A stretch of 38,476 nt of DNA, taken from positions 1-38,476 of the forward strand of contig ONOQ01000016.1 of NCBI GenBank assembly GCA_900319485.1. Direction: 5' to 3'. The notes under the pieces were generated by a model. That model ran no database searches. It saw only the letters and a program-made list of their open reading frames with translations, and had not been told where the DNA came from. The stretch is from an uncultured Bacteroidales bacterium. Lineage in GTDB: Bacteria > Bacteroidota > Bacteroidia > Bacteroidales > UBA932. The stretch's first letter is position 1; each line of letters begins with the position of its first letter. Position numbers and translations under genes: made by a program. This document shows, piece after piece, positions 8,402 to 19,710 of the stretch.

Positions 8402-8466
8402 ACGGAGCACAGACTGTGTCAACATCTACTGACTCACTTTTTTCTGCCCCCTGACGCAGTATTTCG

Positions 8467-8474
8467 TAAATTTG
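8467..8474 (+). promoter_or_regulatory. Promoter -7 element for the sigma-barrel fusion gene
   Basis: TAAATTTG fits TAnnTTTG and lies 31 nt before the ATG at 8506. A weak TTCTG occurs about 20 bp upstream. Confidence 0.5.
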
Positions 8475-8505
8475 CAGTCTATAATTAAAATAGGCACAAG
8501 GCTGC

Positions 8506-10209
8506 ATGGACAAAAGACAACTCGTGGATGGCTGCAAACGTGGGGACTCCGCTTCAGTGGAGGCCCTATATCGCAGCTATTCCGGGAAACTCATTGGAAT
8601 ATGCCGGCATTATGTTGACTCCCAGGAGGTAGCTGAAGATCTGCTGCATGATGCTTTCATCGTCATTTTGTCCTCTATCGGCCAGCTCAAGAATCCCGAT
8701 AAGCTGGATTCCTGGATGGGGGTCATCGTGAAGAATATGGCCATCGACTATCTCAAGGAAAGCCAGCATTTTACGCATCCGCAGGAAGACTTGGACATGG
8801 AGGATGTACCGGATGAGCCGATGTATCCCGTGCCTCCTTATGAGGATTTAATGGCGCTGATTGACCGCCTTCCGGAACAGTATGGAAAGGTGTTCCGCCT
8901 GTCCGTACTGGAGGGACTTTCGCACAAGGAGATAGGGGCTCTGCTGCATATCGGAGAGAAATCGTCTTCATCCAATCTTTTCCGGGCCCGCCAGGTGCTG
9001 CAGAAGGAATTGAAGCAGTATTGGCTGGCGCTTTTAGCGCTGATTGTATTGATTGTCACACCGCTCCTGCTACATAAAGAAACGGAGCCGACGTCTATTC
9101 CGGATGGGCCAATAGTTGTGAATAATGGTGCAGATAGCGTAGAAGTAGTGATTCCAGTGGACTCGTTGTCTGTTCCTGCAACTCCGACACGAATGGAGCG
9201 TATCCGGACAGCGGAAGCCGGTCCCCTTGATACAACTCCGGAGCCCGCCGATACGGTAACTCTAAGGCAAAGACTGATGCCAATCGATATTAGTCCTGTG
9301 TCTATCCCGACTGCCACCCGCCAGGTATCCGGGCAAGGAGCATCCATCAGGAAGCCGAATCGGCAGGAAACCACCCTTGGCCAGCCACTACTGGCCGATG
9401 CCAGGGGCTCCAAAAAGAAGAATCTCCTGGGGCTTCTGCCATCCATCTCGGCACTCCCGAGTACTATTGCGGGTGTCAGCCCTATTATCATGGGCTCCGG
9501 TATTCTGGCCGATGCCTCTTCCTTTGTCATGGCACCGGATACAAAGGTGACAGACTGGAGCGATTTCCTTACTGCCGTGCAATCAATGGAAGGTCGTTAT
9601 AGCACCGGCGATTCCCTTGCTTACTATAATTCACTGTTGGATATCGCAGAACGGTTAGCCGTCCCCGACGTAATGGACCCGCATCCGAAGCCGGTAGAAG
9701 AGAAGGCCGAATATGAAAGACCTTTCACGCTGGGACTCAGCGCAAGCATCGGCCTGAATGACCGCTGGAACATACTGACCGGCCTGGAATATACACGGCT
9801 GCGCAGTTCGCACACCATCGGCCTGGATACGCTCTATATCAAGAACCGGCAAACCATCCATTACGTGGGTGTTCCGCTCGGCCTTTCCTATACGGTCTGG
9901 TCAAAGGGAAATCTTCACCTGAATGCATCGGCCTTTGGCAAGATGGAGATTCCGGTTGCCGGCATCCTGAACAGCGAGCACCACAATGGTGTGGCGAACA
10001 CGTATCAGAATACACTTAAGTTCAAGGCTCCTATTCAGTGGTCGGCCGGGGTCGGCATCGGCCTCCAGTACAACCTGACGCCCTGGATGGGCTTGTATGT
10101 GGAGCCGCAGGTACGCTACTACTTCGATACCGGAGGTGGTGTCCAAACAATCAGACAGGTTCAACCCGTTGAATTTGCTGTACCGTTCGGCGTGCGGCTG
10201 ACATTCTAA
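8506..10209 (+). CDS. ECF sigma factor fused to TM helix, linker and outer-membrane beta-barrel
   Basis: This is a single uninterrupted 567-codon frame. Residues 15-87 are sigma region 2 (LYRSYSGKLIGICRHY, DLLHDAFIVIL, DSWMGVIVKNMAIDYL). Residues 118-170 are region 4 with its helix-turn-helix (GLSHKEIGALLHIGEKSSSSNLFRAR). Residues 173-190 are one transmembrane helix. About 200 Pro/Thr/Ser-rich residues follow (periplasmic, probably disordered). From about 400 to 567 is a PorT/OmpA-like beta-barrel with alternating strands, ending in aromatic GVRLTF. Normally the sigma factor and a dual-membrane-spanning anti-sigma protein are separate genes in Bacteroidetes. Here no anti-sigma domain is left, so the sigma factor appears directly tethered across both membranes. 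Release would require proteolysis. It is element cargo, downstream of the LytTR gene. Confidence 0.85.
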   Translation: MDKRQLVDGCKRGDSASVEALYRSYSGKLIGICRHYVDSQEVAEDLLHDAFIVILSSIGQLKNPDKLDSWMGVIVKNMAIDYLKESQHFTHPQEDLDMEDVPDEPMYPVPPYEDLMALIDRLPEQYGKVFRLSVLEGLSHKEIGALLHIGEKSSSSNLFRARQVLQKELKQYWLALLALIVLIVTPLLLHKETEPTSIPDGPIVVNNGADSVEVVIPVDSLSVPATPTRMERIRTAEAGPLDTTPEPADTVTLRQRLMPIDISPVSIPTATRQVSGQGASIRKPNRQETTLGQPLLADARGSKKKNLLGLLPSISALPSTIAGVSPIIMGSGILADASSFVMAPDTKVTDWSDFLTAVQSMEGRYSTGDSLAYYNSLLDIAERLAVPDVMDPHPKPVEEKAEYERPFTLGLSASIGLNDRWNILTGLEYTRLRSSHTIGLDTLYIKNRQTIHYVGVPLGLSYTVWSKGNLHLNASAFGKMEIPVAGILNSEHHNGVANTYQNTLKFKAPIQWSAGVGIGLQYNLTPWMGLYVEPQVRYYFDTGGGVQTIRQVQPVEFAVPFGVRLTF

Positions 10210-10258
10210 GACACGCAGTATTTGCCCGTCCGTTCAGTCATATAGAAAAACGAAACGG

Positions 10259-11041
10259 ATGGGAAACCGATACCAGGACAGACATCAATACTTTGATGAG
10301 TTGGTGGAGACTTCGACGGCCTTCTACGTCGAATATATCTGCCGATTCATGCCCATTGCCGAGGGCATCCGTGTACTGGAAGTGGGATGTGGCGAAGGCG
10401 GGAATCTCCTGCCCTTTGCGCTGATTGGCTGCGAAGTGACCGGGGTTGACTTTTCCGCAAAGAAGATTGAAAATGCCCGGAACTATTTCCAGATAAATGG
10501 CGCCGATGGGGCATTCTTCTGTGCTGATTTCTTCGATTTCCCCCTACAGGACAAGGCATTTGACGTGATTCTGGTCCACGACGTGATGGAGCATATCGCG
10601 CCGGAAGACAAGGGACGATTTCTGGATCGGATTCGCGCATTTCTGGCCCCGGGCGGTGTGGCCTTCCTGGCTTTCCCGGCTTGGCAGATGCCCTTTGGCG
10701 GCCATCAGCAGACCTGTTCCCCGAAGGTACTCCGAGTCCTGCCGTGGATTCACCTGTTGCCGAAGCCTCTATACCGGGGAGTCCTTCGCTTATTCAAAGA
10801 CTCTGATGGGCATATAAAGGAACTGATGGACATCCGCCGTTCCAGGATGACCGTAGAGCGGTTTGAGAAACTATGCCGAGCGCATGGCTTTGCTGTTCTG
10901 GACCGGACGCTCTGGCTCATCAATCCCCACTACAAAGCCAAGTTCGGACTGCACCCTATCAAACTGAAGCTGGGTATGGACAGGATTCCATATCTGCGGA
11001 ACTGGTTCTCGACAAGCTGCTGGTATGTTGTAACATTTTGA
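10259..11041 (+). CDS. Class I SAM-dependent methyltransferase
   Basis: The 260-aa protein has motif I VLEVGCGEGGNL at about residues 39-50, then VTGVDFSAKKIENAR (acidic ribose-binding Asp), a Cys/Ala-Asp-Phe-rich motif (FFCADFFDFPL), and DVILVHDVMEHI (motif IV, methyltransferase type 11/Ubi-like). The C-terminal part (RLYRG..., ELMDIRRSRMTVERFEKLCRAHGF) is similar to methyltransferases in glycan or lipid gene clusters. The substrate is unknown. It lies 49 bp after the sigma-barrel gene on the same strand and may be co-transcribed with it, making it a possible target of that regulator. Confidence 0.85.
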   Translation: MGNRYQDRHQYFDELVETSTAFYVEYICRFMPIAEGIRVLEVGCGEGGNLLPFALIGCEVTGVDFSAKKIENARNYFQINGADGAFFCADFFDFPLQDKAFDVILVHDVMEHIAPEDKGRFLDRIRAFLAPGGVAFLAFPAWQMPFGGHQQTCSPKVLRVLPWIHLLPKPLYRGVLRLFKDSDGHIKELMDIRRSRMTVERFEKLCRAHGFAVLDRTLWLINPHYKAKFGLHPIKLKLGMDRIPYLRNWFSTSCWYVVTF

Positions 11042-11049
11042 TAACTTTG
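11042..11049 (+). promoter_or_regulatory. Promoter -7 element for serpin gene
   Basis: TAACTTTG starts immediately after the methyltransferase stop codon (11039-11041) and ends 12 nt before the serpin ATG at 11062. No clear -33 element is seen. Confidence 0.55.
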
Positions 11050-11061
11050 CATTTGGATATT

Positions 11062-12318
11062 ATGAGAACAAAATCGTCAATGAAATGGATGCGCGGATTG
11101 GCTGTAGCGGCCAGCCTGCTTATGGTTGCCATCTCCTGTGAGAAGATAGATAATAAAGATGATGAACCGGACAACCCCTACCAGGAAATAGAGATTACGA
11201 CGAAATCGGCTGATTTCGTCCAACAGGGCCTTCCTTTCACCTTCGACTACATCGGCCGGATCAATGACGGCACAGAAGAGAACTATATCATTTCTCCGCT
11301 GAGCATGCAATTCCTGCTGGGGATGATTCTGGACGGCACCCGCGGGGAAACCGCCGATGAAATATGCACAGTGCTCGGATATGGGAAAGGTGAGGTCGAT
11401 GCCGTAAACGAGTATTGCCTGTCCATGCTGCAGCAGCTCCCGGAGTTGGACAAAAAGACTACACTCAGCATTGCCAATGCCATCGTGGTCAACCAACAGT
11501 ATTCACTGTTAGACAGTTATCAGGCAACGGTGGGTAAATACTATGAAGCTTTTGTATCTAAGATGGATTTCTCCAATAGTGATGCGGCCGTGACAGAAAT
11601 CAACCAATGGTGCTCTGATCATACGGGCGGAATGGTGCCGAAAGTGTTGGAGAGAGTCAGTATCGACATGCTCTGCTATCTGTTCAACGCCTTGTATTTC
11701 AAGAGCGAATGGAAGTTCATGTTCGACAAGTCGGCCACCTCAGATGAAGATTTCATGAGCGGTGCCGGTCAGAAGGTGAAGGTGAAGATGATGAGGCAGG
11801 CCGAGAATTACCAGTATGCCGAAAATGATACTTACCAAGTGGTAAACCTTCCTTACGGGAACGGTGCCTTCTCCATGTTGGTGTTCCTGCCCAAGACGGG
11901 TTACGGTATTCCGGATGTCATCGGCCAGCTGAAAAAGGCAGATTGGAACAATTACCGCCTGGGTATGGGGATTAGCGAGGTAGATCTGTGGCTCCCTCGA
12001 TTTGAAACCAAGTTCGGCATCAAACTGAACGACATCCTCGCGGCGATGGGAATGCCCAGGGCGTTCGATGATACCAGGGCCGATTTCAGCGCGATGTCTC
12101 CAGATGCCTTATGCCTGAGCTTTATTCGTCAGGATGCCGCCATCAAGGTGGATGAAGAAGGCTCTGAAGCCGCTGCCGTCTCTTCTGCCGGAGTGTTTGT
12201 TACTTCTCCCGGCCCCAACCCTCATGCCGTATTTCACGCCGATCATCCGTTCCTCTACCTGATTACAGAAACCAGCACAGGAGCCGTACTGTTTGCCGGA
12301 CGCTACAGCGGAGAATAG
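11062..12318 (+). CDS. Serpin (serine/cysteine protease inhibitor) lipoprotein
   Basis: The 418-aa protein has a signal peptide with Cys near residue 30 (MVAISC), so it is a lipoprotein. The serpin fold is clear: NYIISPLSMQFLLGMILDGTRGETADEI at the N-terminus, LFNALYFKSEWKFMFDKSAT, VVNLPYGNGAFSMLVFLPK, VDLWLPRFETKFGIKL, and C-terminal FHADHPFLYLITETSTGAVLFAGR. The reactive-centre loop hinge reads DEEGSEAAAVSSAG, with Gly at P15 and small residues at P12-P9, which is the inhibitory type. Counting from P15, the scissile bond falls near VFVT|S, a small/hydrophobic P1 that would suit elastase-like proteases. It starts after the methyltransferase gene with its own -7 element. Gut bacteria use such inhibitors against host or competitor proteases. 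Confidence 0.9.
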   Translation: MRTKSSMKWMRGLAVAASLLMVAISCEKIDNKDDEPDNPYQEIEITTKSADFVQQGLPFTFDYIGRINDGTEENYIISPLSMQFLLGMILDGTRGETADEICTVLGYGKGEVDAVNEYCLSMLQQLPELDKKTTLSIANAIVVNQQYSLLDSYQATVGKYYEAFVSKMDFSNSDAAVTEINQWCSDHTGGMVPKVLERVSIDMLCYLFNALYFKSEWKFMFDKSATSDEDFMSGAGQKVKVKMMRQAENYQYAENDTYQVVNLPYGNGAFSMLVFLPKTGYGIPDVIGQLKKADWNNYRLGMGISEVDLWLPRFETKFGIKLNDILAAMGMPRAFDDTRADFSAMSPDALCLSFIRQDAAIKVDEEGSEAAAVSSAGVFVTSPGPNPHAVFHADHPFLYLITETSTGAVLFAGRYSGE

Positions 12319-12350
12319 CACCGATTGTTGTCAGCGAGCTTTCAGTTGTC

Positions 12351-13034
12351 TTACCTTTTGCTTTCAATCTCCTCTCTTTTCAAGCGCTGTTCCTGCTCCC
12401 GGATAAACGCTTTCATCCGTTTTTTACTCTCTTTCCCAGTTTCAAAGATGTGGACGACGTCCTCATAGGCGACATCTTTGTGATCAATGAGCCCCTTGTT
12501 ATCCTGGCGCGGATGATTGCAAACAGCATAATACCTTTTGCCCCAGTATTCGGGACTATGGGTGTAAATGCCGATGGCTACGCAGAATAAGATGACGACA
12601 AAGGGACAGGCGGCGGCCATTCCCTCGCGAAGCCATCGTTTCCACGGACTGATTTTGGTTTCTCGCACCAGGTTCATCAATCTGTCGGCCCTGCTCATCA
12701 GTTCGTCCATCTTCTTTTCCTGAGGCTCGGACCATTCGTGGGTACAAGTGGTTTCAATGCGGATTGAGTGCTTTGTGAGCACTTGGCTCACGCTGACTTC
12801 CGTTGCCTTCTTGATAGCTTCACCCACTCCCGCAAGGCTGTTCTTTAGCTGTGTAGAGACTGTCTGGGTAATAGAATCTATCGTCTCCTGCGGAACAGCT
12901 GCAGGAGCTGGCGTTTCGATCATTTGTTCCAATCGGCTCACGCGCTCCATGGTTTCGTTGATATCAATGTTGTGCTGGGCTATAATGTCCTGGACATTTT
13001 CCCGGCTGGTAGTATGGTTTGATTTCATAATCAT
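12351..13034 (-). CDS. Mobilization-associated coiled-coil membrane protein
   Basis: The 227-aa protein has an N-terminal helical, coiled-coil-like region (about residues 15-130), a basic stretch (ISPWKRWLREG), one transmembrane helix at about 139-157 (ACPFVVILFCVAIGIYT), and a charged C-terminal helix (KKRMKAFIREQEQRLKREEIESKR). It is the last gene of the mobilization operon, 6 bp after the relaxase stop codon. Proteins with this layout commonly accompany Bacteroidetes relaxases, possibly linking the relaxosome to the membrane or coupling protein, but I recognise no named family. Confidence 0.6.
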   Translation of the reverse strand: MIMKSNHTTSRENVQDIIAQHNIDINETMERVSRLEQMIETPAPAAVPQETIDSITQTVSTQLKNSLAGVGEAIKKATEVSVSQVLTKHSIRIETTCTHEWSEPQEKKMDELMSRADRLMNLVRETKISPWKRWLREGMAAACPFVVILFCVAIGIYTHSPEYWGKRYYAVCNHPRQDNKGLIDHKDVAYEDVVHIFETGKESKKRMKAFIREQEQRLKREEIESKR

Positions 13035-13040
13035 TTCTTC

Positions 13041-14318
13041 TTATCTGCGCATTCCGGGATATCCCGGCCTCCTTCCTCGTCTTCCAGGACCGTAAAAGTA
13101 GATGTCGTCCAGATGTTCCCTGGACTTCGTTGGTTGTGATGCAACGTCAAGAAGTTCCATGGTGACTTCTCCCAGTACGTCTTTGAAGGACATATGCTCC
13201 TTAAGAACCAGTTGGGATTCTGAACCGTGGACGGAGCTTGAAGCATACTCTTCGCCGTCAATCATTTTGGCAATGTTCCCGGCCGACAGTTTGCGGTCGA
13301 TGGCCGACCCTTTGATGGTTTTATCTTCCCCGTTCCGGTCTTCGAAGGAAAAACTGACGCCTTTGACAGCGCCGGTTTTGGGGTCGGTCCTGAAATGTGT
13401 CTGTATGCCGTACTTGGCCGTCTCGGCGGGAAGCTGGCGGATGTCCGATACCTTGGAGATGCATTGGAACAGGGTATGCTTGAGCACCTCTCTTTCAAAT
13501 TCTTCCGGCGACCGGACCTGGCGTTTGTCCTGCAAGTCGTTCTCACGAAGTGTTTTCATGATATTGCCGGCCGACAGGGAACGGTCCAGTTCAGACCCTT
13601 TCCAGACATGTTCTTTCCCATCTATGTCCTTGACCGCGAAGCTGATACCCATGATTCTTCCGGAGTTTTCGTTTACCTTAATTCGGGTTTCAATGCCGCG
13701 CCGCGCCGTCTCTTCCGGAAGATCGGCAATGGATCTTATCCTTTTCAAGCACTGGCTCACGTCCCTGGCGGTCTGATAGCGGAGTTTCTCCGTGGGGTCG
13801 TTAACCTTGGATTTGGAAATGACTTTGCTGTCGCCCCACGTGAGTCCTTCCCGCTTAGTAATTTCCTGGCAGACGGCAACGTTTCTCCGACGCTCCCACT
13901 GGTCGCTGATACGGTTTCCGTCGTTATCCACCCGGTTCAGGGTGATGTGGATATGCGGGTTACGGGTTTCGTCGTGCCGATGGATGACATACTGTGTGTT
14001 GGTGAATCCCATCTTCTGCAGGTAGTCTTTGGCAATCTTTAACATATAGTCGTTGGTTAGCCTGGGCATATCTTCCGGCTTGAAAGACAGGGCTATGTGC
14101 GCCACCGGTTTGGTGACCTTGGGATTCAGCCCTGCCTGGAGTTCGAAGCTACGTGCCATGGCTTTCAGGTCGGGGTCAGGAGTGCCGTCGGGGCGGTAGT
14201 TCATATCCACGCCCTCGGAGTAAAGGTAAGAGACTATCTTGCCGTTCTTCTGGTCCAGGTCTCCGTCGTAGTTCAATGCTCCGGCGAAGGACGAACCTGT
14301 CGTTATCTTGGCCATCAT
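13041..14318 (-). CDS. Relaxase/mobilization nuclease (MobP/BmgA-like)
   Basis: The 425-aa protein is a relaxase of the PF03432 family. The metal-binding histidine motif is HRHDETRNPHIHI at residues 113-125 (His113, His115, His122, His124). An upstream tyrosine for nicking should lie in the first 45 residues (Tyr17, Tyr31, Tyr33 or Tyr41). The C-terminal half contains a duplicated module of about 70 residues (about 186-257 and 284-353). Both copies carry LP.ETA..GI.T, K/NG.v.GiSF, and KGS.iDR.LSAGNI, probably DNA- or partner-binding. Its ATGATG start overlaps the TGA of the preceding mobC-like gene, indicating translational coupling. It nicks oriT to start transfer. Confidence 0.9.
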   Translation of the reverse strand: MMAKITTGSSFAGALNYDGDLDQKNGKIVSYLYSEGVDMNYRPDGTPDPDLKAMARSFELQAGLNPKVTKPVAHIALSFKPEDMPRLTNDYMLKIAKDYLQKMGFTNTQYVIHRHDETRNPHIHITLNRVDNDGNRISDQWERRRNVAVCQEITKREGLTWGDSKVISKSKVNDPTEKLRYQTARDVSQCLKRIRSIADLPEETARRGIETRIKVNENSGRIMGISFAVKDIDGKEHVWKGSELDRSLSAGNIMKTLRENDLQDKRQVRSPEEFEREVLKHTLFQCISKVSDIRQLPAETAKYGIQTHFRTDPKTGAVKGVSFSFEDRNGEDKTIKGSAIDRKLSAGNIAKMIDGEEYASSSVHGSESQLVLKEHMSFKDVLGEVTMELLDVASQPTKSREHLDDIYFYGPGRRGRRPGYPGMRR

Positions 14319-14875
14319 AGCTGCTTCACTTTCTTCTGGAAGTAGGATTTAATCTCGGCAAAGTCGGCCATGAAGGCATTGTACTGCGCCAGTGCGTTGA
14401 TGTTGGAACCGAGCTTCCCCTGGACAAAGAGCTGGTTCAGCCTCTGCCCCAGTTTGTGCAGATTGATAATAATGTGCCGCTCTTCCGGTGAGAGAGCCGA
14501 CACCACATCGGAAGACATCACCACCATCCGGCAGAACTCCGAATGGGTAAGCGTGTCGATATCCTTCAGGAAGGAACAGTACCGGGCCTTGTGGATGTCA
14601 CAGCGCAGCAGGGCTTCCCGGCAATAATCGGCAGCGCACTTGAGCGAGAGTTTGTACTTGATCTGGATCGCGGCACGCTCATTCTCGCACACAGCGAAGG
14701 AGACCCTCCCGTCTCTCACCCTTGTGCGGATGGCTTCGCGGGGACGCCCACCCTTTTTCTTTTTCATCTTTTCAGTGCCTGCGACCAACGGGAGCGGGCC
14801 ACTTCGAGTTAGTTCGCGTTTACGCGAACACAAACTCGCTACCTCTTTGCCGGAAGCCTTTTTATCCTTTGTCAT
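14315..14875 (-). CDS. MobC-like relaxosome accessory protein
   Basis: The 186-aa protein starts with a Lys/Arg-rich segment (KMKKKKGGRPREAIRTRVRD), then a ribbon-helix-helix-like region (VSFAVCENERAAIQIKYKLSLKCAADYCREALL). The MobC family C-terminal signature follows: LHKLGQRLNQLFVQGKLGSNINALA. MobC-type proteins bind near oriT and assist strand opening by the relaxase. It overlaps the upstream DUF3853 gene by 4 nt and the relaxase start by 4 nt. The three form a tightly coupled operon read toward the left. Confidence 0.85.
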   Translation of the reverse strand: MTKDKKASGKEVASLCSRKRELTRSGPLPLVAGTEKMKKKKGGRPREAIRTRVRDGRVSFAVCENERAAIQIKYKLSLKCAADYCREALLRCDIHKARYCSFLKDIDTLTHSEFCRMVVMSSDVVSALSPEERHIIINLHKLGQRLNQLFVQGKLGSNINALAQYNAFMADFAEIKSYFQKKVKQL

Positions 14876-15210
14876 AGCTGTCCCTCCCCACGCTTTTCCC
14901 GTTTGTACTTCTCGGCCAACTCCCTGGCGAGGGCGGCGTTGAAGACAATCTTCTTGCCCACCTGTGAGACGATGGCCGGGGTTAACACGCCGTTCTTTTT
15001 GAGTTCGTAGATGGTGCTGGGACAGCAGCCGATGTAGGCCCCGAGGGCCTGGATTCCGTACACGTACAAGGGTTCGGAGGAGGTGCCGGATGGTTTGGAC
15101 GAGAGAGCGTAGTCGGCCAATTGCACGAACTCCTCTCCACTCATTTGCCAGACGGGCTTTGCCATCAAGGCGGCAATGTCGAAATTTGACTCGCTCATAA
15201 GCATATACAT
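14872..15210 (-). CDS. DUF3853 helix-turn-helix protein (excisionase-like)
   Basis: The protein is up to 112 aa and fits the DUF3853 family: MAKPVWQMSGEEFVQL near the N-terminus, a YVYGIQALGAYIGCCPSTIYELKKNGVL helix-turn-helix, and QVGKKIVFNAALARELAEKYK at the end. These proteins resemble excisionase/MerR-type winged-helix DNA binders and are frequent in Bacteroidetes mobile elements. Three in-frame ATGs (15210, 15204, 15198) are possible starts; the one at 15198 gives MSESNFDIAALMAKP and is equally plausible. It leads the mobilization operon behind a full promoter and an inverted repeat. Confidence 0.8.
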   Translation of the reverse strand: MYMLMSESNFDIAALMAKPVWQMSGEEFVQLADYALSSKPSGTSSEPLYVYGIQALGAYIGCCPSTIYELKKNGVLTPAIVSQVGKKIVFNAALARELAEKYKREKRGEGQL

Positions 15211-15218
15211 TTAAAAAT

Positions 15219-15246
15219 CACGGGGCCACACTATTGTGACTCCGTG
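15219..15246. promoter_or_regulatory. Inverted repeat at the mob operon start site
   Basis: Two 12-nt arms (15219-15230 and 15235-15246; outer sequence CACGG/CCGTG, inner CACA/TGTG) pair with one mismatch and one G-T pair around CTAT. The repeat abuts the -7 element, so it covers the transcription start. It may be an autoregulatory operator for a relaxosome protein or part of oriT. Confidence 0.5.
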
Positions 15247-15279
15247 CAAAGGTAGATACGCTCATTTTTGAACTCCAAA
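15247..15279 (-). promoter_or_regulatory. Promoter of the mobilization operon
   Basis: TTTG (15276-15279), a 21-bp spacer and TACCTTTG (15247-15254) form a complete promoter on the minus strand. The rest of the intergenic space to 15420 holds TTTGGCCAAA (15294-15303) and other short inverted repeats. It is the most likely place for oriT, though no known nic site is recognised. Confidence 0.7.
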
Positions 15280-15420
15280 TTTCGGAAGGCGCTTTTGGCC
15301 AAATTTCCCCCAGAAAAAGTGCCAAAACGAAATGCACTACAGGCCCCTGGAAGGCCGATTTTGACGCATCTTAGTTCATTTTCCGCGATTGGCGTTTTAT
15401 CAACTCAAACCGCCCCCGAC

Positions 15421-15449
15421 AAAAGGCCGAAAGCCATAGGGCCTTCGGC
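15421..15449 (-). terminator. Terminator after the DUF4062/HATPase gene
   Basis: A 10-bp stem with one mismatch (15426-15435 with 15440-15449) is followed on the minus strand by TTTT. It lies 37 bp beyond the stop codon of the gene at 15486. Confidence 0.65.
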
Positions 15450-15485
15450 TATTGGGGTGAAAAAGAAAGGGGGATGGGTGATTTG

Positions 15486-17027
15486 TCAGTGCTCTGACAA
15501 ATATTTCTTCAGTACCTCCCTACCTGCTTCAGTAATCCGGTATTTTTGAGTGGGGCTTTTCGGTGATTCAGGTTGGGTTCTTTCCACAAGGTCGGAATCA
15601 AGCGCCGGGGTTAAGTAATTGTCTTGGAACATTGGTCGGCTCGTGAAACCGAGCTTGTCCATCATCTCGCGCATAGACATTTCTCCCGATAAAGCCAAAA
15701 GCAGGCGGATTACGGAGTCACTTACTTGTCCTCTACTTGCACTATTACTTGCACTATTACTTGCACTGTTACTTGTACTGTCACTTGTCCCCTCATCCTG
15801 TCCGGGCTTCTCTTTACGCCAGATAACCACGCGAAAATCTTCTTCTTGATGATATTCCGGGTCCTTCAATCCCTTGCCTTTACATAAGGTTACGATATCT
15901 TCAGTGCCCGTCCCAACCTTATCTATGTATCCGGTCCAGAACATTGGATCGGCCAGAAGCGGATTGGCGGGAAGCGATTTGTGCGGCTCAAGAAGCTTTT
16001 TAACTGTTAGCCCGTATGGCAGTTGTCCGGGATTCCAAACTTCCAGACGGTTACGGAACAGCATTACCTGCACACTGGCATTGCTCGTATAATCACGATG
16101 GCAGACGGCGTTTACGATGGCTTCTTTTACGGCATCATAAGGCAGTTCGTATTCAGTGGGAACTTCGGCAGTATCGCCTTCTGCGCGCGTTCCTGTCCAG
16201 TTGTCAATCCGGCTCATCACAAACGATGTTGCCTGGTCAATCATCTCAAAGACGGTTCCATGGTAAATCTGATAACTGGGCAGAGGTTTCTCTACAACAT
16301 TTCCATAAAACTGAACACATTTGACCTCTGAAGTGATGAAGAAACGCTGCGGACGCTTGCCGAACAAAAGAATGGCGGCGTTAGCAATCCGTCCGTTTTC
16401 GTCCATAAGAGATAAATGAGTAAGTAATTCGGTCGGAGTTGAGTCCAGTGGCAGAGGAAAACCGCGTTTCTTTCTGGCGGTACGGATAAATGCGCTCATC
16501 TTTTCCTCGTCCAGATCGTCCAACTTAGCTTTTGTATCAAAGGCGGCGTCGAACGGCTGCCAGCGGATATATTCCTTTTCCTCCAGGTAGCGGACCAAAG
16601 CGGCATAAACGGAGGCCCTTAAGTCCTCGATATTCACGAATGTTTTACGGACGATGTCACGTTCGGCCTTTTGAATCAGTGCTGTCTCCTTAGGATGGCG
16701 GTCTTGTTCATTCGTGCTCTTGATAAAGATAAGACGCGACTTATGCAGTTCCGCAGCAAGATCATATTCTCTTTCTGTGGGAGAAACGCCCTCGGCATCC
16801 TCGAAACCATACTTAATGCCGTAGAGTCCAAGGTAGATATCGGAAGCTTCGACTTCGCTCAGGTACACCTGCTGAGGGGATGCCTCGTTAGCAGGGACAT
16901 CCTCGAAAATGAAGGTCTCAAAGAACTTGCCCAACAGAGCATCTGTCCTTATGTAGTTGTTCAGCATAGCCCTCTCTTGGGCAAATTCGCTCTGAACGCT
17001 GCTGATGAAGATCCTTATCCTTTGCAT
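15486..17027 (-). CDS. DUF4062-HATPase_c_4-winged helix protein
   Basis: The 513-aa protein has an N-terminal DUF4062 domain (about residues 3-150: RIRIFISSVQSEFAQER, VYLSEVEASDIYLGLYG, PTEREYDLAAE). The second part is of the RecG-like COG2865 type: NGRIANAAILLFGKRPQ, the ATP-binding N-box VKEAIVNAVCHRDYT, LEVWNPGQLP and VGTGTEDIVTLCK. A Ser/Asn repeat linker and a winged-helix-like C-terminus with ITEAGREVLKKYL follow. COG2865 proteins usually carry an AlbA_2/Schlafen domain at the N-terminus; here DUF4062, a TIR/nucleotide-hydrolase-like fold seen in several defence proteins, takes its place. A role in defence or regulation of the element is an inference. It has its own strong promoter and terminator. 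Confidence 0.8.
   Translation of the reverse strand: MQRIRIFISSVQSEFAQERAMLNNYIRTDALLGKFFETFIFEDVPANEASPQQVYLSEVEASDIYLGLYGIKYGFEDAEGVSPTEREYDLAAELHKSRLIFIKSTNEQDRHPKETALIQKAERDIVRKTFVNIEDLRASVYAALVRYLEEKEYIRWQPFDAAFDTKAKLDDLDEEKMSAFIRTARKKRGFPLPLDSTPTELLTHLSLMDENGRIANAAILLFGKRPQRFFITSEVKCVQFYGNVVEKPLPSYQIYHGTVFEMIDQATSFVMSRIDNWTGTRAEGDTAEVPTEYELPYDAVKEAIVNAVCHRDYTSNASVQVMLFRNRLEVWNPGQLPYGLTVKKLLEPHKSLPANPLLADPMFWTGYIDKVGTGTEDIVTLCKGKGLKDPEYHQEEDFRVVIWRKEKPGQDEGTSDSTSNSASNSASNSASRGQVSDSVIRLLLALSGEMSMREMMDKLGFTSRPMFQDNYLTPALDSDLVERTQPESPKSPTQKYRITEAGREVLKKYLSEH
15735..15782. repeat. 12-bp tandem repeat within the DUF4062/HATPase gene
   Basis: Four units of ACTTGCACTATT (two exact, two with one or three changes) encode a Asn/Ser/Ala linker on the minus strand. 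Copy-number change would keep the frame and alter linker length. Confidence 0.75.
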
Positions 17028-17046
17028 ACGTGTCTTAGTCCTCCTA

Positions 17047-17076
17047 CAAAGATATGTATTCTTCTTGATGTCGCAA
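17047..17076 (-). promoter_or_regulatory. Promoter of the DUF4062/HATPase gene
   Basis: TATCTTTG (17047-17054) with TTG (17074-17076, part of TTTTG) 19 bp upstream. It ends 19 nt before the ATG at 17027, close to the family consensus. Confidence 0.75.
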
Positions 17077-17085
17077 AATGCGAAG

Positions 17086-18447
17086 TCAAATTAAGGAATT
17101 GAATTTGGCCATGGACTGGACCTTGATGGAATCAACGATGTCAATGTAGGGTTTCATGGATTTGTAGTCGCTGTGGCCGGTCCATTTCATTACCACATCC
17201 GGGGGAATCCCCAGGGAGAGGGCGTTGACGATGAAGGTGCGGCGGCCGGTGTGGGTACCGATGAGCTGATACTTGGGATAAATAGTGTCCGTGCGTACAT
17301 TCCCTTTGTAGGTGGTCACCCGGATCTCTTCATCGATAGCGGCCAATTTGCAAAGCTTCTTGACATCCCGGTTCATGGCCTGGTTGGTCAGGTTGGGAAG
17401 CGCCTTGTTGTCTTTAAAGGGGACATCCTTGTACTTCTCCAGAATGGCTTTGGTGATGTCGTTCAGCTCGACGGAGATGCTGTCGGCCGTCTTGACAGTA
17501 GTAATTTCAATGTGGTCTCCCTTGATGTCGCTGCGGCGGAGGTTGTTGGCGTCGGAGTGCCGAAGGCCGGAGAAGCAGCAGAAGAGCAGTACATCCCGAA
17601 CCGGATCCAGGAAGGCCTTATCGGCCGTCAGCTCCAGCGCCCGGATTTGCTTGATTTCCTCTTTTGTCAGGTATATGACACGCTTCTGCGTCTTTTTGAG
17701 GGTTGGATGGAAGGATTTATAGCTGCGGTTTGTGTTGAATCCTTTCTCGGAGGCCCAGTTCAGGAACCATTTAAGGTAGTCAATCTTCTTTTCAATGGTA
17801 GAGTTTTTGAGGCCGGTCACATCTTCCGGGTCATATTCCTTCCTGTCCCCTTTCTTTTTCCGGGGAGTACGCAGCGACTTCGTGTCCCTCAGGTAGGTGA
17901 CGAAAGCAGTGAGAACATCTTCATCCAGTTCGGTGAACTTGATGCCGGACCTGAACTTATGCAGATCATTCCTCAGTGCCGCCCACTTTTGGAAAGTAGC
18001 CTCCGTCCAGGCGTTTTTTTCTCCACACTCGGCCGTAAACTTGTCAAATACTTCAAAGAAACCGGGGGCCTTGGGCTTGCGCTCCTTCTTCTCCTCGGCA
18101 GGCTTGGACGGAACAGTACCGTTAAGGCGCTGTTCATACTTCACTTTCAGTTCCTCAATCGTCGGGTTCTTATCCGTAGCCTCGAAGAACTTGAATGCAG
18201 TATCCATCTGGTCCCGGACATTGCGGAGCTCGTTGTTGATAGCTTGCGCCGTCTCCCCCTTCGGCCCCACGTATCCTTCGGCCACCAGCTGCAACTGATC
18301 ATCCCAGGTCGACAAGTTATTGATCTGGCATCCGGTCTTGGTGTCAAAACGGCGGCCGTTGAAAGTAACCCTCATCCTGATCTGGAAGAGGTTCCCGTCC
18401 TTCCCGTAAGGACGAAGCTTGAAAGCGATATTTCTCTTAATCTTCAT
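17086..18447 (-). CDS. int: Tyrosine integrase of the mobilizable element
   Basis: The 453-aa protein has an N-terminal arm-type DNA-binding domain (about residues 5-105), a SAM-like core-binding domain (about 128-235) and a catalytic domain. Catalytic residues are visible: Arg296 in GLRHSDA, His399 and Arg402 in HTGRR, His425 in TGHSD and Tyr434 in MKPYIDI. It belongs to the Bacteroidetes integrase group that targets tRNA genes. It lies at the right end, reading inward, with its start 129 bp from attR. It should catalyse recombination between the 21-bp cores. No clear TAnnTTTG promoter is seen; the direct repeat at 18467-18491 sits where the promoter should be, so integrase binding could autoregulate it. 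Confidence 0.93.
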   Translation of the reverse strand: MKIKRNIAFKLRPYGKDGNLFQIRMRVTFNGRRFDTKTGCQINNLSTWDDQLQLVAEGYVGPKGETAQAINNELRNVRDQMDTAFKFFEATDKNPTIEELKVKYEQRLNGTVPSKPAEEKKERKPKAPGFFEVFDKFTAECGEKNAWTEATFQKWAALRNDLHKFRSGIKFTELDEDVLTAFVTYLRDTKSLRTPRKKKGDRKEYDPEDVTGLKNSTIEKKIDYLKWFLNWASEKGFNTNRSYKSFHPTLKKTQKRVIYLTKEEIKQIRALELTADKAFLDPVRDVLLFCCFSGLRHSDANNLRRSDIKGDHIEITTVKTADSISVELNDITKAILEKYKDVPFKDNKALPNLTNQAMNRDVKKLCKLAAIDEEIRVTTYKGNVRTDTIYPKYQLIGTHTGRRTFIVNALSLGIPPDVVMKWTGHSDYKSMKPYIDIVDSIKVQSMAKFNSLI

Positions 18448-18466
18448 AGCGCATTTTTGTCAAATC

Positions 18467-18491
18467 GTGGCCCAATAATGGCCCAATTTTG
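18467..18491. repeat. Element-end direct repeat (candidate integrase arm site), right copy
   Basis: Tandem GGCCCAA units ending ATGGCCCAATTTTG match the left block at 4831-4856. The block lies between the integrase start codon and attR. Confidence 0.5.
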
Positions 18492-18576
18492 AGTGTAGCC
18501 GCTTGACTACGACTGCAATAATACGCAATAGAAATCATTTAAACAAGGGTTCCTGCACGGGATTGCACTTCGTTTA

Positions 18577-18597
18577 CGAATCCCTCACTCACCGCAA
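18577..18597 (+). repeat. Attachment site attR
   Basis: This is an exact copy of the 21-bp tRNA-Ser 3' end. The 5' part of the tRNA is absent here. The last two codons and stop of the dipeptide epimerase gene lie within it on the other strand. Confidence 0.88.
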
Positions 18598-19710
18598 TAG
18601 CTGTACGCCTATCCCCGGCCTGTCCGGGAGGGATAATCGGCCATCAATAACCTTCACGCCGTCAAAGCGGTCGTTGGAGATGAGGAGGTTGCCGTCAAGG
18701 TCGGCAAAATCAACGTACGGAGAGAACTGCGCCGCGGCCGATATTCCGCAGGAGGTTTCCGTCATACATCCCACCATCACTTTCATCCCAAGGGCGCGGG
18801 CCATCTGGGCCATACGCCAGCCTTCGCGCATACCCGTGCACTTCATCAGTTTGATGTTGATGCCGGAGTAGGCTCCCTGGATGGAGGGGATATCGGCAAG
18901 TCTCTGGATGCTTTCATCGGCAAAGATGGGGAGGGGACTGCGCTCCGTGAGCCAGGCGTTGTCGTCCAGGCGCTCCTTTGCCATAGGCTGCTCCACCATC
19001 ACTACGCCCTGCTCCCTGAGCCAGAAAATCTCTTCAAGGGCCTTCTCCCTGTCTTTCCAGCCCTGATTTGCGTCTACGGCAAGGGGGACGTCCGTGACGG
19101 AGCGGATGGCGCGGATCATTTCCTGGTCAGTGTCAAGGCCAACCTTGACCTTAAGGATATTGAACTTGCCGGCGGCTTCCAGCGTCTTTTCCCGCACAAC
19201 CTCTTCAGTATCAATGCCGATAGTAAACGTTGTGGAGGGCGCCTTTCCGGGGTCAAGGCCCCAGATGCGGTACCAGGGCTCTCCGATGAGTTTTCCAACA
19301 AGGTCGTGAAGCGCTATGTCTACGGCTGCCTTGGCGGCGGAATCTCCGGGGGAGAGGCTGTCTACGTAGGAGAGGATGTCTTCAATCCTGAATGGGTCAC
19401 TGAACTGACTCAGGTCCACTTTGTCAAGGAACCTGCACACGGATTCCACGCTCTGGCCAAGATAAGGCGGCATTGATGCCTCTCCGTATCCGGTAACGCC
19501 CTCCCAGGATATTTCCACCTGGACATCAGGGGTGACGGTACGGCTGTATGAAGCCACCGTGAAGGTGTGCCTCAGTTGAAGTTCATACGGGAAGAACTTC
19601 ATTCTGAGGGGGCCTCCGGAACGCCTTGGCGTGAAGCCCTTGCAGCCGATGATGGATGCCCCGGCAGCAGCCAGGGCGGCGGTTTTCAGGAAATCTCTCC
19701 TATTCTGCAT
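18589..19710 (-). CDS. L-Ala-D/L-Glu (dipeptide) epimerase, exported
   Basis: The 373-aa enolase-superfamily protein has the dipeptide epimerase pattern: KVKVG (Lys acid/base pair), AVDANQGW, MVEQP, ADES metal ligands, and INIKLMKCTG (second Lys), with C-terminal GCMTETSCG. It converts L-Ala-D-Glu from murein peptides to L-Ala-L-Glu. The N-terminus MQNRRDFLKTAALAAAG is a Tat-like twin-arginine signal, followed by Cys in IIGC, so it may be an exported lipoprotein. I chose the ATG at 19710; the frame extends further but only that start gives the signal. It overlaps the NlpC/P60 gene by 11 nt, matching a YkfC-YkfB type pathway. Its stop lies inside attR. Confidence 0.88.
   Translation of the reverse strand: MQNRRDFLKTAALAAAGASIIGCKGFTPRRSGGPLRMKFFPYELQLRHTFTVASYSRTVTPDVQVEISWEGVTGYGEASMPPYLGQSVESVCRFLDKVDLSQFSDPFRIEDILSYVDSLSPGDSAAKAAVDIALHDLVGKLIGEPWYRIWGLDPGKAPSTTFTIGIDTEEVVREKTLEAAGKFNILKVKVGLDTDQEMIRAIRSVTDVPLAVDANQGWKDREKALEEIFWLREQGVVMVEQPMAKERLDDNAWLTERSPLPIFADESIQRLADIPSIQGAYSGINIKLMKCTGMREGWRMAQMARALGMKVMVGCMTETSCGISAAAQFSPYVDFADLDGNLLISNDRFDGVKVIDGRLSLPDRPGIGVQLLR

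Follow-up and report, generated by a model that had tools for sequence, protein, structure and literature searches.

The open reading frame (ORF) at positions 8506 to 10209 on the forward strand of the window, the whole stretch of 38,476 nucleotides from an uncultured Bacteroidales bacterium that we analyzed, encodes a transcription factor of the Dma3 type, with a fused sigma domain and a layout that would span both membranes, Dma3 being known from its published description. The identity and layout of the product are near certain: an ECF sigma factor, a single transmembrane (TM) helix, a linker and an outer-membrane beta-barrel follow one another in a polypeptide of 567 amino acids. We propose, with a probability of roughly 55%, that this Dma3-type factor is silent while tethered and is activated by release. 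The genome of the window is a 2.5-Mb draft in 91 contigs, 93.5% complete.

The frame is open over 567 codons with no internal stop, and we assigned its parts by ORF reading, Pfam and AlphaFold2 (all coordinates are on the forward strand). The sigma factor occupies residues 1 to 171. Its region 2 (residues 1 to 88; 8506 to 8769) matches Sigma70_r2 (PF04542) over residues 21 to 86 with an E value of 3.7e-10 and is modeled as helices at 3 to 11, 15 to 36, 40 to 60 and 64 to 85; region 4 (residues 111 to 171; 8836 to 9018) is also modeled and matches Sigma70_r4_2 (PF08281) over residues 113 to 163 with an E value of 3.7e-13. Both matches are above cut-off, as expected from the first-pass annotation, which had read an ECF sigma factor in the N-terminal 170 or so residues. 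The top NCBIfam match of the fused protein, TIGR02985, is below cut-off. Hydropathy predicts one TM helix, at residues 172 to 190 (9019 to 9075), directly after the sigma factor as had been described. The linker, residues 191 to 399 (9076 to 9702), is presumably periplasmic and was delimited by AlphaFold2 and composition. It was noted earlier as rich in proline and threonine and about 200 residues long; it has 209 residues, 19% of them Pro or Thr, and is mostly disordered, with pLDDT mostly below 50 over residues 191 to 347 and short helices at 351 to 359 and 369 to 384. The barrel, residues 400 to 567 (9703 to 10206), has about eight strands in the model and ends in phenylalanine, which agrees with the aromatic end first read from the sequence. 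Its match to the Pfam family OMP_b-brl_2 (PF13568; residues 406 to 540, E 1.9e-4) is below that family's cut-off, and Foldseek relates it to an OmpT-fold barrel protein (E 2.6e-4).

The AlphaFold2 model of all 567 residues, made from 33 aligned rows, has a mean pLDDT of 72.8, and both sigma domains and the barrel are modeled confidently, mostly above 90. At the N terminus, the Foldseek matches are structures of ECF sigma factors, namely one from Mycobacterium tuberculosis (5e-9), AlgU-MucA (2.5e-8) and sigmaE-RseA (7.7e-8). TM-scores against these are low, in our reading because the two sigma domains are differently placed. The last helix of region 4 and the TM segment form one helix, residues 151 to 188, without a break; block pLDDT along the TM segment drops to 80 and then to 66 over its second half. 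The model of a named Prevotellaceae relative that is 34% identical (L085) has the same layout, with a helix at 151 to 190 and extra low-confidence strands inside the linker.

This arrangement suggests how the protein would sit in the cell. The sigma domain would be cytoplasmic, with its last helix continuing into an inner-membrane anchor; the disordered linker would span the periplasm, and the barrel would lie in the outer membrane. The helix of region 4 that recognizes the -35 element, which by homology we place at the start of helix 151 to 188, would in the tethered protein end about ten residues from the membrane. Since this helix lies so near the membrane, RNA polymerase and promoter DNA could hardly reach the tethered sigma factor together, so that silence by tethering, with no anti-sigma domain involved, is a geometric argument that we infer from the model. 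Silence of the tethered form and its freeing by proteolysis are plausible. We favor them because the model puts the recognition helix near the membrane and because IutY of Pseudomonas putida, in which a sigma domain is likewise followed by a TM helix, is cut; with IutY as precedent, proteolysis is the likeliest route of release. An outer-membrane signal, or failed insertion of the barrel, would expose the linker or the TM helix to a periplasmic protease, an intramembrane protease would act next, and a fragment of about 20 kDa would be freed. The freed fragment would start transcription at its own promoter and at that of the neighboring methyltransferase gene, and in some relatives it would act directly at an adjacent serpin gene.

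Alternatively, the tethered protein could be active in place: polymerase would be recruited to the membrane and the barrel would act by conformation rather than by release, as membrane-bound one-component regulators such as ToxR and CadC do their work in place. No anti-sigma domain was found that would keep the sigma factor silent, and a motif at its own promoter says nothing about release. We nevertheless think activity in place unlikely, given that the last helix of region 4 is continuous with the TM helix in both models, which leaves little room for DNA and polymerase, and that IutY, with the same order of sigma and TM helix, is activated by cleavage according to two reviews.

The absence of a visible anti-sigma domain, first remarked from the sequence, was borne out across the family. 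For comparison we selected 74 separate Dma-like partners with 25 to 75 residues ahead of the TM helix (median, 47), built an anti-sigma model on 37 of them and checked it on the 37 held out. All 37 held-out partners match the model, and none of the 62 distinct fused ORFs that we collected does so. In 58 of the 62, the TM helix is predicted to begin no more than 10 residues ahead of the end of the sigma match and no more than 3 past it. Three of the other four have a spacer of 25 to 27 residues between sigma and TM, in which the anti-sigma model gives no score, and one has no TM helix at threshold. The TM helices also differ in composition, being leucine-rich in fused proteins and alanine-rich in separate partners, and a proline lies in the TM core of 47 of 56 fused proteins versus 13 of 86 separate partners; the proline contrast is a hint only, because the windows compared were defined in different ways in the two groups. 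Proline in the TM helix is a requirement in substrates of site-2 proteases, and its presence here fits a substrate of this kind.

We searched 400 genomes of the window's genus with the first 194 residues of the fused protein. Full-length orthologues of 565 to 567 residues are present in at least 10 other genomes; a further copy (G005) is broken by runs of N, and another (G359) stops at a contig end. Where computable, dN/dS between the window's fused gene and five divergent orthologues (G241, G319, G107, G297 and G332) is 0.05 to 0.09 in sigma regions 2 and 4, 0.03 to 0.09 in the TM helix, 0.06 to 0.10 in the barrel and 0.13 to 0.23 in the linker. Closer pairs give noisy ratios because few sites differ; G319 versus G107, a close pair with few changes, gives 0.50 in sigma region 2. 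By these substitution ratios, the sigma and barrel parts are under purifying selection. A misassembled fusion or a vestigial sigma domain would be conceivable in that the window's genome and many of its relatives are draft assemblies and the G005 copy is interrupted by N. This explanation has almost nothing left to it in view of the full-length orthologues in at least 10 genomes, which speak against a sequencing artifact, the low dN/dS in both halves and the conservation of a promoter-like motif described below.

The fused form is, as judged from sequence comparison, a widespread family with one main origin across several Bacteroidales families. Looking through related genomes for both forms yielded the 62 fused ORFs besides many separate pairs; a later addition of 20 stretches from the family of G454 contributed 18 with a fused ORF, several of them loci already included. 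In a sigma tree of 163 rows, thinned by similarity and built by a quick method with SH-aLRT support only, a clade of 34 rows, supported at 100, unites 32 of the 35 fused rows with two broken copies. The clade holds the window's genus, named Prevotellaceae and Muribaculaceae records, and the families that we coded f5, f26, f27 and f166. The remaining three fused rows fall within the window's genus, where separate sigma factors surround them in the tree, and on this placement they are a second fusion within that genus; these are the three ORFs with the 25- to 27-residue spacer. Because rows named Bacteroides or Phocaeicola cluster with family f26, it is probably the family of Bacteroides thetaiotaomicron. 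In f26, 65 of 251 genomes pass an E value of 1e-56 with a fused alignment, some of the matches being shorter than the whole length.

Separate sigma and Dma genes lie in frame, with few codons from the stop to the next start, at L342, L354, L358 and L373, and such neighbors could fuse by losing one stop. Apparent fusions of 600 residues in another genus were rejected: the frame spans a stop, and they are really separate in-frame neighbor ORFs. An assignment of the genus of G522 to Bacteroides was unsupported, the top matches of a named Bacteroides sigma factor being 60% identical and found in 3 of 38 genomes. There are also broken members of the fused clade. One (L321/L379, in G454) is split into two overlapping ORFs between the sigma-TM part and the barrel, and another (L398, in G1063) carries one TAG stop; the cause may be gene decay, phase variation or an error of assembly.

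The two broken members, L321 and L398, bear on another explanation, namely, that the fusion is always processed, being cut soon after synthesis into two halves, one working as a sigma factor of the usual kind and the other as a porin unrelated to it. They imply that separation may be tolerated. Against it stand the nearly constant junction length in 58 of 62 ORFs and the low dN/dS of the TM segment in divergent comparisons, and we regard constant processing as very unlikely.

A candidate promoter for the freed sigma factor lies just upstream of the fused gene. This putative promoter, at 8454 to 8483, was recognized as a conserved upstream block and consists of ACGCAGTATTT, 12 nt and GTCTATA. 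ACGCAGTATTT stands at this position in every one of the 12 upstream regions aligned for the window's clade, the window included, and is followed by GTCTATA or GTCTTTA; farther upstream, beyond the shared block, there is resemblance only among subsets of the 12 loci. We searched the whole genomes for the motif at 12-nt spacing only. At zero or one mismatch, the site of the fused gene is the only one in each of the 12 genomes, and at two or three mismatches there are 25 sites in the 12 genomes versus 18 for the reversed pattern. The putative promoter of the methyltransferase gene was missed in this search because its spacing is 13 nt. This second, perfect copy, ACGCAGTATTT, 13 nt and GTCATATA, lies at 10213 to 10244, ahead of the methyltransferase gene, and was assigned from sequence and conservation. 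Two matches with at most one mismatch turned up in 26 of 100 shuffles of a window-sized sequence; since chance pairs are not rare, the weight of the second copy rests on its conservation, ACGCAGTATT being retained in 10 of 10 window-clade loci with a methyltransferase match.

In the thinned set of 163 rows, we counted the core GCAGT[AC]TTT within 120 bp upstream of the sigma genes. It is present at 28 of 37 genes (the 35 fused rows, three of which belong to the second fusion, together with the two broken copies) and missing there from the other 9, against 10 of 126 separate rows; kinship among rows means that these are not counts of independent cases. On the reverse strand it occurs in 4 of 163, and the background is about 0.0055 per 120 bp. 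The 10 separate rows mean that the core is not exclusive to fused genes. In other families, the motif precedes a methyltransferase gene beside a fused gene at L346, L401, L404, L446, L447, L449, L452, L457, L458 and L460, where L404 and L458 are one locus. A variant of it precedes the methyltransferase at L445, and it is absent ahead of the methyltransferase at L174, L175, L176, L179, L412/L459 (one locus) and L464. The fused gene thus probably switches on itself and neighboring genes when its product is released, and the positions of the motif predict, at the level of sequence, an autoregulated, release-activated sigma factor. Both the promoter-like motif and the methyltransferase and serpin neighbors are new, going beyond the earlier reading of the sequence.

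The first of these neighbors, at 10259 to 11041, encodes a class I SAM-dependent methyltransferase of 260 amino acids (PF13649, E 1.4e-20). In the window's clade, the fused gene is followed by a methyltransferase match, which at L165 is a 24-residue piece; L172 ends inside the fused gene. To compare neighbors, we took units flanked on each side by 300 bp or more, which left 126 of the 163 rows. A methyltransferase adjoins 8 of 34 fused units and none of 92 separate units (Fisher p 1.4e-5, kinship ignored), and with wider flanks it is found near 10 of 18 fused genes of f26. Such a partner, or the anti-sigma domain of another Dma protein, could inhibit the fused sigma factor in trans. The window's genome does contain separate sigma/Dma pairs (L046 and L047), and the methyltransferase association just described points the same way. 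The two separate pairs examined sit on other contigs, however, and 26 of 34 fused units, as well as 8 of the 18 fused genes of f26, have no methyltransferase in the search range. Inhibition in trans therefore strikes us as doubtful, and silence by tethering, followed by release, is still the reading we prefer.

The second neighbor, at 11062 to 12318, is a serpin with a lipoprotein-like signal, assigned by PF00079 (E 3.1e-98), PDB 5ncs and synteny; we read its lipobox and start codon by eye. Its top PDB matches are the bacterial serpin 5ncs (E 1.4e-62), and miropin is the name in sister entries. The sequence TAACTTTG at 11042 to 11049, just 5' of the serpin start, resembles the Bacteroidota housekeeping -7 element, and on account of this resemblance the serpin may have a promoter of its own too. 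Serpins adjoin several distant fused genes. As a mark of the fused form, however, the serpin was rejected: serpins adjoin 5 of 34 fused and 11 of 92 separate units, the latter set including loci picked for holding serpins. As they also adjoin separate pairs, the association is older than the fusion or independent of it.

We surveyed serpins across the genus at 60 loci, covering 63 of the 82 rows from outside the window's own genome (the 19 omitted were mostly the weakest or fragments). A sigma/Dma pair is present in 9 of the 60 loci, or 10 counting a weaker sigma match (L299); L314 has a barrel only and L315 a sigma factor only. The order sigma, Dma, serpin, as separate genes in one direction, recurs at L257, L259, L261, L263, L264, L269 and L295. 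Among class-wide serpin matches, 16 of 21 from outside the window's genome were viewed with wider flanks; none of the 16 has a sigma match, and at the edge of one locus (L212) there is a weak match to the barrel. A serpin match occurs in 40 of 61 genomes of the genus versus 18 of 149 class-wide, 15 of those over cut-off. The window's genome itself has five serpin genes (G000 contigs C34, C53, C60, C72 and C76; L046 and L209 to L211), two of them beside a sigma/barrel locus.

A serpin next to a protein that may be activated by proteolysis could complete a self-contained protease-sensing circuit, in which a protease acting in the periplasm or at the cell surface would cut the tether, which is anchored in the outer membrane, the freed sigma factor would raise an envelope serpin, and the serpin would inhibit the protease. 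In such a circuit the anti-sigma domain would be dispensable because the tether itself is the lock. The motif lies directly upstream of an adjacent serpin in three distant fused loci (L173, L180 and L181), which by position argues for the circuit, and also at L032, which is close to L181. No motif was found directly 5' of the serpin in the window, in five further loci of its clade whose serpin match is intact, or at L179, and these serpins would depend on read-through. A related site was seen at one of 10 serpins that lie in nine loci where sigma and Dma are separate genes. We put the circuit forward tentatively, as a possibility with the odds against it.

The first-pass annotation had also placed the fused gene on a mobile element. 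The first ORF of a probable integrative mobilizable element (12351 to 18447), with a relaxase, a NikA-like protein, a DUF4062/HATPase/Fic-like_C protein and a tyrosine integrase, ends 33 bp past the serpin stop. A search of 12200 to 19000 gave no direct repeat that would convincingly mark the flanks. The idea that the fused gene is cargo of such an element was not supported by the orthologous loci or by a comparison with a core gene. In 24 compared loci, several of them short and with limited flanks, the relaxase and NikA have no match, and L163, L164, L166 and L171 retain the order sigma, methyltransferase, serpin; the genes around the fused locus vary between orthologous loci. In its divergence the fused protein broadly tracks PNPase, the product of the core gene pnp, though exceptions occur in either direction: identities for the fused protein and PNPase are 99/99% (G245), 89/96% (G406), 97/93% (G150), 80/91% (G241), 80/82% (G319), 77/76% (G107) and 69/74% (G332), in a comparison where G078 had no match, G005 and G385 gave pieces only and G297 was left out. 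Counting against the rejection, integrases do occur near the fused locus, since there are integrase fragments about 6 kb downstream of the methyltransferase at L169 (82% identical) and near L174 (29% identical).

The route from the state of the outer membrane to transcription is a largely open field in Bacteroidota. With one protein, one promoter-like motif and one or two neighbor genes, every step from the outer membrane to the promoter becomes testable within one operon. Should tethering by itself keep the sigma factor silent, this class would have no need of an anti-sigma domain. According to PMC7406223, only 6% of Bacteroidetes ECF sigma factors have a class I anti-sigma neighbor.

The fusion proved not to be unprecedented. 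According to PMC13088901, Dma proteins consist of an anti-sigma domain, a TM helix, a disordered tether and a barrel, and Dma3 of B. thetaiotaomicron, about which very little is known, bears its own N-terminal sigma domain; fusion of a sigma factor to a dual-membrane protein is therefore a known kind. In the open-licence literature we found no other fusion of a sigma factor to an outer-membrane barrel described and no serpin linked with a sigma factor, nor did we find it reported there that the fused proteins form one clade, that they lack an anti-sigma domain, that they share a motif or that the methyltransferase and serpin are likely targets. The first two of these points may be touched on in the primary Dma paper (10.1073/pnas.2321910121).

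The window protein has the TM helix, the long disordered tether and the C-terminal barrel of a Dma protein and lacks a detectable anti-sigma domain. As in the Dma3 type, a sigma domain stands at the N terminus of the same chain and no separate cognate sigma gene lies beside it: there is no other sigma match in the fused gene with about 1.5 kb per side (L001) and no sigma family among 20 other window ORFs scanned. Dma3 (bt_2778-2779), as described in PMC13088901, likewise has an N-terminal sigma domain and no neighboring sigma gene, and we liken the two by this description rather than by sequence. The two gene numbers would fit a fused gene plus a methyltransferase. Dma1/Das1 and Dma2/Das2 of the same species share the TM helix, the disordered tether, the C-terminal barrel and an ECF sigma partner; there, however, sigma and Dma are separate and Dma has an N-terminal anti-sigma domain, whereas in the window they are fused and none was detected. 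Like the window protein, IutY of P. putida (ECF243) is a single chain in which an ECF sigma domain is followed by one TM helix and then a part in the periplasm; according to the reviews PMC9249621 and PMC8999054, cleavage by Prc and then RseP frees its sigma domain, and the truncated protein is constitutively active. Unlike the window protein, its FecR-like part ends in the periplasm, and the outer-membrane sensor, IutA, is a separate receptor. ECF48, ECF52 and ECF53 of Actinobacteria similarly carry a C-terminal membrane extension on the sigma factor, with proteolytic activation expected (PMC8999054), but theirs has a zinc-finger anti-sigma segment and one or two TM helices and, in contrast to the protein described here, no barrel.
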